Assembly (NCBI GenBank): GCA_019636475.1 | Contig: JAHBXN010000003.1 | Coordinates: forward strand, 372,001-436,000 | DNA from: Phycisphaerae bacterium | GTDB taxonomy: Bacteria > Planctomycetota > Phycisphaerae > UBA1845 > UTPLA1 | DNA length: 64,000 nt | Direction of reading: 5' to 3' | In this document: in pieces, positions 60,917 to 64,000 of the stretch | Position numbering within the stretch: the stretch's first letter is position 1 | How the letters are laid out: each line of letters opens with the position of its first letter | Position numbers and translations under genes: made by a program | Notes under the pieces: model-generated | Databases searched by the model: none | The model's input: only the letters and a program-made list of their open reading frames with translations | Told to the model about the DNA's origin: nothing

Positions 60917-61168
60917 TCAGACACAGACAACTTCTTTCACTTCAGGCACATTGTCGCGCAAAGACTGCTCCACGCCGAGCTTGAGGGTGACGGCGGCCGA
61001 CGGGCAGCCGATGCACGCGCCGTGAAGCCGGACTTTGACCACGCCATCGACGCCAACGTCGATCAACTCGATGTCTCCACCATCACTCTGAACGGCCGGC
61101 CGAAGCTGGCGGATGATGTCCGTCACATCGGCCCTGATGTCGTCAATCGTTCGGGTGGTTTGTGACAT
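60917..61168 (-). CDS. NifU-like Fe-S scaffold (C-terminal domain type)
   Basis: 83 residues from ATG 61168 (GAGGAG seven bases upstream). Single NifU C-terminal domain with LRPAVQSDGGDIELIDV and the CIGCPSA cysteine pair, which holds a [4Fe-4S] cluster for transfer to client proteins. Such stand-alone proteins are common in Gram-negative-like genomes. No Isc or Suf genes nearby. Confidence 0.9.
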   Translation of the reverse strand: MSQTTRTIDDIRADVTDIIRQLRPAVQSDGGDIELIDVGVDGVVKVRLHGACIGCPSAAVTLKLGVEQSLRDNVPEVKEVVCV

Positions 61169-61259
61169 CCGACACTCCTCGGCGGGACGGCCAATGACGC
61201 CCGCAGCCATTCAGCCAGAGTATAGCCGTGAAGAATGGCGCGTCGCAATCATCCGGGGA

Positions 61260-61808
61260 TCAACGACCGAATCCCGGTTCACTTTGTGTCCATGTCCGCT
61301 GTCTCGCCGGCGGATTGCTGGAGAACCCGGCGACGTTCAGTTCACACTTCGGAACAACGGCGATGCAATAGGGACTTGAGGGAACAAGCGGGGCACCTTC
61401 CGGCGGCTGGACGACCGAGGACTCCACGCGGAGTTCGCCCCCCTCCCTGACGACCCGGTCAATTTTTACGCGGTATTGATCGGAAGGGACGCGACCGAGC
61501 GTTATCACAAGCATCATCTCGTGATCAAAGTCAATCGGAATCTGTTCGAGCGGAACCTTCGCGAGGGCCGCCGAGTCCCGAATGACAAGCCGCATCGCGC
61601 GGGTTTCATGCGAATGAACGCGGACCACCTCGCGGAGAATCGGCAGTTCCTCTCCATCCGAAGGCATCTCACTGATCCCGTCGGCGGACTCTATGCAACT
61701 CCAACCCAAGCAGAGCGACGCCACCAGGATGAGCGCGGCGTTTCGTCGCGAGGAACCCTCGCAACCCGCCAAGCCGAAGGACCGATTAGGCTGAGAACGC
61801 TTCCGCAT
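61260..61808 (-). CDS. PrcB-like lipoprotein
   Basis: 182 residues from ATG 61808 (an upstream extension is possible but poor). A lipobox-like LGWSC follows a hydrophobic segment (about 24-36). The C-terminal domain (about 95-165: DFDHEMMLVITLGRVPSDQYRVKIDRVVREGGELRV, then GAPLVPSSPYCIAVVPK) matches the PrcB_C pattern. PrcB helps a protease complex in Treponema; here no dentilisin-like gene is adjacent. Divergent from the MATE gene. Confidence 0.72.
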   Translation of the reverse strand: MRKRSQPNRSFGLAGCEGSSRRNAALILVASLCLGWSCIESADGISEMPSDGEELPILREVVRVHSHETRAMRLVIRDSAALAKVPLEQIPIDFDHEMMLVITLGRVPSDQYRVKIDRVVREGGELRVESSVVQPPEGAPLVPSSPYCIAVVPKCELNVAGFSSNPPARQRTWTQSEPGFGR

Positions 61809-61863
61809 GGGTTCAATGTTAGGCCGGACGCACCGATATTCAAAGGGGGGGCCGACCGCCGCC

Positions 61864-61892
61864 TTGACGTGAGCAACCACGGCCACTAATCT
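61864..61892 (+). promoter_or_regulatory. Candidate promoter of MATE leader
   Basis: TTGACG (61864-61869), 17-base spacer, TAATCT (61887-61892), with a predicted start near 61899. Confidence 0.5.
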
Positions 61893-61904
61893 CCATGCAT
61901 GGAG
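61891..61904. promoter_or_regulatory. 14-bp perfect palindrome overlapping the -10 and start site
   Basis: CTCCATGCATGGAG is its own reverse complement and overlaps the -10 end and the predicted first base, as a repressor operator would. Its second half is also the ribosome site of the upstream ORF. Confidence 0.4.
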
Positions 61905-61912
61905 TTCCGTAC

Positions 61913-62008
61913 ATGAGCCAGTTCAAACCCAACTCTTTGAAGATTGTCGCGAGGACGGCGAGTGTCCTCGACAGCAATCCGACTGCGCGAGGGGTTTCCC
62001 TGGTTTAG
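61913..62008 (+). CDS. Possible 31-residue leader ORF upstream of the MATE gene
   Basis: ATG 61913 with GGAG eight bases upstream; stops with TAG at 62006-62008. It spans the antiterminator strand 61993-61999. If translated, it could couple ribosome movement to termination. The peptide has no run of one amino acid that would suggest classic amino-acid attenuation. Confidence 0.35.
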   Translation: MSQFKPNSLKIVARTASVLDSNPTARGVSLV

Positions 62009-62071
62009 TGTGTCACGGCGACCGACTTGAACACACCAGCCCCGGAAACCACGAGTTTCCGGGGTTTTTTT
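61993..62071 (+). promoter_or_regulatory. Candidate attenuator or riboswitch expression platform before the MATE gene
   Basis: A terminator stem CCCCGGAAAC (62040-62049) / GTTTCCGGGG (62055-62064) is followed by seven T. GGTTTCC at 61993-61999 can instead pair with GGAAACC at 62044-62050, opening the terminator. A further hairpin (62008-62013 with 62031-62036) lies between. Upstream, 61950-61956/61964-61970 forms a 7-bp helix with an outer GATTG/CAATC. The two conformations exclude each other, as expected of attenuators. Confidence 0.6.
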
Positions 62072-62083
62072 GTTTGATAGAAA

Positions 62084-63643
62084 ATGAGAGCCAAGGCGGC
62101 CGGTCGCCGCCCACAGCACCAGAGTCATTCCCTAATGCAAGCTGCATCAACATCCAACGCACCGTTACTCGAGCCGACCCACAGTCGATCCGTGCTGGTC
62201 GCCGACATCCGCACGCTGCTGACACTCGCGATGCCGATCATTGGAATCACATTGTCACGCATGCTCATGGGCTTCGCGGACTTCTACCAGGTCTCGTTCC
62301 TCGGCACCGAGGCCACTGCCGCCATCAGTCCGGCCACGCTCTTTGTCTTCATGGCTCTGTGCCTCGGCATGGGCGTCGTTACCAGCGTTCAGACCTTTGC
62401 CTCTCAAGCGCTGGGTCGAGGTGAACCCCGCGAAGCGAGTGGCTATGCGTGGCAGACGATGTATATCGCCGTGTTCACGATCCCCATCGCATTCGCCATG
62501 ACCCTGATTTCCGATGCGGTCTGGGCGGGAATCGACGCGCCAGCGGCGGTCCGCGCCATGGAGGCCGACTATTGCCGCGTCGCATTCTGGTCCGTGCCTT
62601 TCGGCGTGGCCTGCGCCGGCCTCGAAGGTTTTTTCAACGGCGTTCAGAAGCCGGGGGTGGCCCTGAAGGCCATCATCGCCGCTCTGATCACGAACGTGGT
62701 CGGGAACTACCTGCTCATCTTCGGGAAGTGCGGCTTTCCCGAACTGGGCATTACCGGGGCGGCGATTGCGACCATTTTCGGTTGGGTCGTTCGGCTCGTT
62801 GTACTCGGGTGGGTGTTCTTTTCTGCAGAATTCCGGGACCGGTTTGGAACACGAGCGAACCGCGGACTCGACGGAAATCGGCTGTTATCCACGCTGAAAA
62901 TAGGCGGACCGACTGCGATTCAGTGGGTTCTGGACGTGGGGGCGTGGTTCCTGTTCCTTGCCGTCATCATGCAGGGCTTTGGCACCGCGACGCTGGCAGC
63001 ATCCAACGTGGGCATCCAGTTCATGCATGTTGCGTTCATGCCGGCCATCGGCGTAGGCGTGGCATTGTGTACACTGGTGGGCCACGCAATCGGTGAAGGC
63101 AAGCCGGACGTCGCGATGCGAAAGACGAAGGCCGCATTGATCGTTACCGGCTCTTACATGGGGTTCATCGGCCTGTTCTTTCTGCTGATTCCCCGATTGC
63201 TGATGTCATTGGTGTCGGACGATCAGGCAGTGATCGACGCGGGGGTCGGGATACTGATCTGGGCCGCGCTGTTCCAGGTCTCCGACGCGTTGTGCATCGT
63301 CTATATCAACGCGCTTCGGGGTGCGGGCGATACGAAATGGCCCGCGGTGGTACTTGTTCTTCTTTGCTGGACCGTATTCATGGGCGGGGGCTACGGCATG
63401 GTCCGATTCGTCCCGCAAATGGGCTTACACGGTCCGTGGATGATCTGTACGCTCTACATTACGATTCTGGGCGTTGTTCTCTGGCGGCGATTTGCTCACG
63501 GAGCGTGGCGGCAGATCAGGCTGTTTGAGGCGAAGCCGGAAGCCTCTGGCGCCGTGGCTGCGTCGATCGAAGGTTCGAATTCCGAGGGAGGACTCGCCGC
63601 GATCGACGATCCCTTCGCGGGGAACATCGGAGTCCATTCGTGA
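62084..63643 (+). CDS. MATE-family efflux transporter
   Basis: 519 residues (start uncertain: ATG 62084 or 62135; neither has a good ribosome site). Twelve hydrophobic segments from about residue 42 to 485, with MATE features (ADFYQVSFLG, GLEGFFNGVQKPGVALK, ALRGAGDTKWPAVV). It exports cationic drugs or metabolites using Na+ or H+. Preceded by a probable attenuator. The following GNAT gene starts within its stop (GTGA), so the two are coupled. Confidence 0.9.
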   Translation: MRAKAAGRRPQHQSHSLMQAASTSNAPLLEPTHSRSVLVADIRTLLTLAMPIIGITLSRMLMGFADFYQVSFLGTEATAAISPATLFVFMALCLGMGVVTSVQTFASQALGRGEPREASGYAWQTMYIAVFTIPIAFAMTLISDAVWAGIDAPAAVRAMEADYCRVAFWSVPFGVACAGLEGFFNGVQKPGVALKAIIAALITNVVGNYLLIFGKCGFPELGITGAAIATIFGWVVRLVVLGWVFFSAEFRDRFGTRANRGLDGNRLLSTLKIGGPTAIQWVLDVGAWFLFLAVIMQGFGTATLAASNVGIQFMHVAFMPAIGVGVALCTLVGHAIGEGKPDVAMRKTKAALIVTGSYMGFIGLFFLLIPRLLMSLVSDDQAVIDAGVGILIWAALFQVSDALCIVYINALRGAGDTKWPAVVLVLLCWTVFMGGGYGMVRFVPQMGLHGPWMICTLYITILGVVLWRRFAHGAWRQIRLFEAKPEASGAVAASIEGSNSEGGLAAIDDPFAGNIGVHS

Positions 63644-64000
63644 ACCGACGACAGGTCATTCAAACGCCCCGGCTGTCACTCGTTTGCGGTGACGTCGAAA
63701 TGGCTCGCGCTGCCGCGGAAGGCGATCACGCCGCATTTGCCCTGGCGCTTGATGCTCATGTTCCGCCGGAGTGGCCGCCGGAGATCATGGCTGATGCTCA
63801 AGCACCGTTGGTCCGTCTGATCGACTCCGGAGGCAGTTCGATGAGCGGGCTGGCGTGGTATCTAGTTCTGCGCGAAAAGAAGTCGTTAATCGGCTTCGTC
63901 GGGTTCAAGGGCCCGCCGCGGGATGGCCGACTGGATATTGGATATGCAATCCTGGACGCGCACCACGGGAAGGGCTATGCAGCCGAAGCAGTTCGAGCCC
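63640..64000 (+). CDS. GNAT-family N-acetyltransferase, cut by window end
   Basis: Reads through the window edge; 120 residues are visible. It begins at GTG 63640, which overlaps the MATE stop (GTGA). RimJ/RimL-like start (IQTPRLSLVCGD), strand LIGFVGFKG, DIGYAILDAHHGKGYAAEAVRA with the acetyl-CoA-binding motif. Coupling to the efflux pump suggests it may acetylate a substrate of the pump, which is inference. Confidence 0.85.
   Translation, partial: MNRRQVIQTPRLSLVCGDVEMARAAAEGDHAAFALALDAHVPPEWPPEIMADAQAPLVRLIDSGGSSMSGLAWYLVLREKKSLIGFVGFKGPPRDGRLDIGYAILDAHHGKGYAAEAVRA

Follow-up and report, generated by a model that had tools for sequence, protein, structure and literature searches.

The 64,000-nt stretch of DNA analysed here (hereafter the window) ends in a run of codirectional genes headed by a MATE efflux transporter gene (62084-63643, + strand), whose product matches Pfam MatE (2.1e-39, above the curated cut-off) and TIGR00797 (likewise above cut-off). 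A GNAT acetyltransferase gene (63640-64000, + strand) overlaps the MATE stop codon by 4 nt and continues past the window end. The next gene, some 19 nt further on and already outside the window, is ileS (G000:C3:436210-439788), codirectional with MATE; its product scores 808 bits against the isoleucyl-tRNA synthetase (IleRS) equivalog TIGR00392, above cut-off, followed by the MupB and MupA models. The best PDB matches of this enzyme are 8c8v, then 1ile and cytoplasmic IleRS; it belongs to IleRS type 2, and its nearest counterparts are MupA/MupB-type and eukaryote-like enzymes. The opposite strand carries a NifU-like gene (60917-61210), a neighbor also seen near and upstream of MATE in L299, L301, L303 and L320-L323, and a divergent ORF (61260-61886) with a weak, below-cut-off PrcB_C-like match (0.00044). 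In its longest reading, from a GTG start, the divergent ORF would overlap the MATE promoter, and a more internal start is likelier.

Layout of the leader upstream of MATE

The leader (61864-62071, + strand) comprises a fair promoter, a Shine-Dalgarno sequence, a 31-codon upstream ORF (uORF) and an intrinsic terminator. The first-pass annotation of this DNA overlooked the uORF, and ileS, just beyond the window and in the same direction, was not visible to it. The promoter (61864-61892) consists of TTGACG (61864-61869) and TAATCT (61887-61892) separated by a 17-nt spacer. With 8 of 12 consensus matches it is, on its own, just fair rather than the good promoter initially described, and a consensus scan does not list it; its assignment as a promoter is upheld by the relatives, since TTGAC precedes the uORF in 22 of 29 leaders (2.2 expected). 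A GGAG Shine-Dalgarno sequence (61901-61904), recognized from the sequence, is located 8 nt 5′ of the start of the uORF (61913-62008), which encodes MSQFKPNSLKIVARTASVLDSNPTARGVSLV and is identified by the position of its stop codon in relatives and by codon periodicity.

The uORF stop is separated by 29 nt from the terminator (62038-62071), a stem of 12 pairs closed by a 5-nt loop (62038-62066) and followed by seven T residues (62065-62071), and the T tract is separated by 12 nt from the MATE start codon (62084). The hairpin by itself folds at -20.0 kcal/mol, confirming the terminator that had been placed at 62040-62064 plus seven T. The complete leader is more stable than shuffled sequences (z = -3.2; 1 of 200 shuffles).

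Element 1 (61914-61935), at the uORF start, is the predicted partner of element 2 in MFE folds, which vary with the assumed transcript start. Element 2 (61989-62012) spans the uORF end and stop codon, and its core GGTTTCC (61993-61999) is exactly complementary to element 3, the GGAAACC in the 5′ arm of the terminator (62044-62050); the 2:3 pairing and the terminator are mutually exclusive. A further hairpin, at 61942-61979, is real in the window sequence (-18.9 kcal/mol; z = -3.3 for the uORF interior). It had been suggested to be the sensing part of the leader, a role that we do not retain: because the hairpin lies inside the uORF and is strong in only some relatives, across which the uORF interior folds with a mean z of -0.8, it is not a conserved sensor.

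Conservation and covariation of the antiterminator

MATE orthologs were collected from the same order and class and the DNA upstream of them was inspected; most of the closest named matches are Phycisphaerae. The layout of promoter, 11-44-codon uORF, 22-39 nt gap, terminator and MATE is present at 38 loci in Phycisphaerae-class genomes, a count that holds after curation, includes an imperfect terminator added by eye (L051) and contains a few pairs sharing a genus; the leader of G014 is identical to that of L065. An ATG uORF that is 14-46 codons long and ends 20-38 nt short of the terminator occurs in 26 of 29 leaders, partly chosen for having a uORF, versus 3.3 in dinucleotide shuffles, and a Shine-Dalgarno sequence together with an ATG uORF occurs in 18 of the 29 versus 0.47 expected. 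Codon periodicity in the uORFs (T at 9% of first and 36% of second codon positions) is a separate line of support. The leaders share ancestry and are not fully independent, so the p-values given here overstate independence.

The encoded peptides are mostly unrelated, even inside one genus, and only a few close pairs share a peptide. A homolog search with the window uORF peptide found none, indicating that the peptide is not conserved, and a plain DNA search with the leader matched, in relatives, the terminator alone. An upstream terminator is found at none of 20 MATE paralogs of the same genomes. Strong terminators are rare in the window genome (32 on both strands in the 864 kb scanned, about a fifth of the genome), and within those 864 kb the scan revealed no further convincing leader with uORF and terminator ahead of a gene. 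Many uORFs (L034, L036, L060, L165 and others) contain near their end, 5-16 nt before the stop, a near-perfect Shine-Dalgarno sequence, AAGGAGG, which may cause ribosomes to pause at the stop codon or belong to element 2. In L274 (215-370, + strand), a further short ORF, MSTEGMLVLLALMAVAGVLVLRGRQAVA, precedes a terminator and then a gene; it may encode a small membrane protein or be another leader.

The core pairs between elements 2 and 3 vary by lineage: GGTTTCC/GGAAACC in the window, GCTTCC/GGAAGC in many relatives, CGCCTCCC/GGCAGGCG in G029 and GGAGGCTGTTCC/GGAACGCCTC in G040. Since the register of element 2 slides between lineages, covariation was judged by swap permutations in place of a fixed per-pair count. 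Over 30 non-redundant leaders, the summed duplex energy is -503 kcal/mol when each leader keeps its own pairing versus -419 kcal/mol (s.d. 17.5) when partners are swapped, with none of 20,000 permutations as low; an earlier, smaller swap test had given 45 of 20,000. The signal is limited to the uORF-end segment (z = -4.9); with segments lying 10-60 nt 5′ of it, the 30 leaders do not favor their own pairing. The alternate pairing first noticed as 61993-61999 with 62044-62050, for which a comparison at homologous MATE genes had been proposed as the check, is hence conserved by covariation as well as exactly complementary in the window. At the level of sequence comparison, the antiterminator is under selection, the swap permutations being the main evidence.

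The effect of a translating ribosome was modeled by masking part of the uORF in transcripts cut before the 3′ arm of the terminator. The 2:3 pairing is possible with the masked ribosome either at the start or at a distance from the stop codon of more than about 8 codons. It is abolished with the ribosome at the stop codon because element 2 is then covered, an outcome built into the way the test was set up. When the uORF start is masked, 2:3 pairing rises over the ribosome-free state (p = 0.001). The ribosome-free window transcript folds into the 2:3 or the 1:2 pairing, depending on the transcript start assumed, and folding alone, at equilibrium, favors the terminator.

Isoleucine codons and the downstream ileS gene

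At 26 of the 38 leader loci, that of the window among them, MATE is succeeded by a codirectional ileS gene, which in a few cases encodes the other IleRS type. One MATE ortholog (L297-L320 and the window locus) precedes mostly type 2 IleRS, and type 1 in L313, L317, L100 and L088; the synthetase appears to have been swapped beside a constant MATE partner. In family f8 (L310, L315, L316 and L331), the gene after MATE is not ileS; as judged by eye from its translation, it is a small gene resembling formyltransferases (PurN-like).

The isoleucine content of the uORFs is linked to this gene order. Ile accounts for 89 of 591 uORF residues (15.1%) at the 26 loci with ileS versus 12 of 314 (3.8%) at the 12 loci without it (Fisher 6e-8; rank test 1e-5), and no other residue differs clearly between the two sets. 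The enrichment of Ile triplets is confined to the reading frame (14.9% versus 3.2% and 0.7% in the other frames) and recurs within family f4 (17 of 140 with ileS versus 0 of 62 without, p = 0.002). Most uORF Ile codons lie at least 6 codons before the stop. ATT makes up 54 of 96 uORF Ile codons versus 145 of 856 in the MATE genes of the same loci, where ATC is usual, a preference that could come from absent codon optimization in the leader. Several uORFs at loci without ileS (L055-L057, L162, L186 and L211) contain no Ile but abundant Pro and Thr (about 12% and 10%, respectively, in the whole set without ileS).

As the uORFs of most relatives with ileS are rich in Ile, the likely signal is scarcity of isoleucyl-tRNA, which the leader most likely senses, judging from codon content. 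The window uORF itself carries a single Ile in 31 codons, ATT at codon 11 (61943-61945), which we regard as the putative control codon; the leader of the closest MATE relative, G006, also has one. With a single Ile codon, the window leader is only a putative isoleucyl-tRNA sensor, and its signal could be weaker, different or lost.

The leader is retained on MATE at the 12 loci where ileS lies elsewhere, and of 13 ileS genes inspected, from genomes that for the most part have no MATE-ileS pairing, none had a uORF-plus-terminator leader. The idea that the leader travels with ileS wherever ileS sits was rejected on the latter count. Taken together, these observations imply that ileS is not the sole target and that the device belongs to the MATE locus, where it has adapted to the presence of ileS.

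Probable ribosome-mediated attenuation and its alternatives

The uORF, terminator, covarying antiterminator, gene order and link between Ile codons and ileS, each shown by comparison among relatives, are best explained by a ribosome-mediated transcription attenuator, and we consider it probable that such a device governs a MATE-GNAT-ileS operon, with isoleucyl-tRNA as the likely signal. Transcription would begin near 61899 and a ribosome would translate the 31-codon leader ORF. A ribosome reaching the stop codon would cover element 2, allowing the terminator to form and ending transcription before MATE. A stall that occurs about 8 or more codons ahead of the stop codon would instead leave element 2 free to pair with element 3, preventing terminator formation, and MATE, GNAT and ileS would be transcribed, presumably on one transcript. 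Ribosome stalling is thereby predicted to control read-through; the trigger would be scarce isoleucyl-tRNA, caused by isoleucine starvation or an IleRS inhibitor, and in the window it would have to act through one Ile codon.

Classical attenuation is well known for amino-acid operons and for some synthetase operons. Like attenuators of the trp/his/ilv/pheST type, this leader family combines a terminator with a leader ORF enriched in the relevant amino-acid codons and an antiterminator that overlaps the ORF end and excludes the terminator. Unlike them, it belongs to Planctomycetota and precedes a MATE pump gene with ileS further along; it also persists on MATE in the absence of ileS, where its Ile codons are missing, and the window leader has just one. 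Control of ileS by T-box leaders has been described, in a translational form in Actinobacteria (PMC1262725); Ile T-box leaders likewise place ileS under control of tRNA-Ile charging, whereas here sensing would be by a translated ORF, and the leader gives no T-box match in Rfam. A survey of leader genes that covers Planctomycetes (PMC4833913) contains, in its accessible part, no description of a MATE-ileS attenuator, and a literature search, mostly without subscription papers, found neither one nor any such case in Planctomycetota. The mechanism is known, and its target and bacterial group are apparently undescribed. Under the attenuation model, classical leader-peptide control, with an amino-acid signal that can be tested, would extend to a MATE pump and IleRS in Planctomycetota, the control codons tracking whether the synthetase gene still adjoins. 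Joint regulation of an efflux pump and a tRNA synthetase would also offer a hint as to what the pump exports.

Mupirocin sensitivity is lower in type 2 IleRS enzymes (PMC4861432). This property underlies a rather doubtful extension of the model, in which the operon would serve as inducible protection against naturally occurring inhibitors of IleRS, these being exported via MATE while a less sensitive IleRS type 2 is made. A mupirocin-like compound would leave tRNA-Ile uncharged, the leader ribosome would stall, and MATE and IleRS type 2 would be switched on.

It is possible, though on balance unlikely, that the uORF senses ribosomes stalled by an antibiotic that inhibits translation, in the manner of ABC-F, erm or mef leaders, that MATE removes the drug and that ileS is a passenger. 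The first regulated gene is indeed an efflux pump, the leader remains with MATE where ileS is absent, and early stalling would favor the antiterminator. There are also analogues: in vmlR (PMC9226507) and mef/mel (PMC4335068), a uORF and terminator are likewise reported to precede a resistance or efflux gene. Those systems respond to ribosome-bound drugs, whereas in the present leaders codon content tracks the neighboring synthetase gene, and an Ile excess that is tied to downstream ileS and present in frame only is not predicted by general drug sensing.

We regard as improbable a separate gene for a small protein or small RNA that just happens to end before MATE. Its ORF would have its own Shine-Dalgarno sequence and terminator, but the ORF keeps its place ahead of MATE although even congeneric peptides are unrelated, and the antiterminator covaries. 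Moreover, MATE in the closest relatives starts within a few tens of nt after the terminator, leaving little room for another promoter.

Very unlikely, and the least probable of the alternatives, is a metabolite-binding riboswitch with the terminator as its expression platform. It would account for the terminator/antiterminator pair and, as a new aptamer class, would resemble nothing known. The place of the aptamer is, however, taken by a coding ORF that has codon periodicity and its own Shine-Dalgarno sequence, the interior helix is not conserved and the leader gives no Rfam match above gathering. The initial description of the leader as attenuator- or riboswitch-like is accordingly narrowed to its first half, since the ORF looks translated and a conserved aptamer-like structure was not observed. 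Sub-threshold Rfam matches in the leader (NsiR1 and others) lie far under their gathering scores and were taken as chance.
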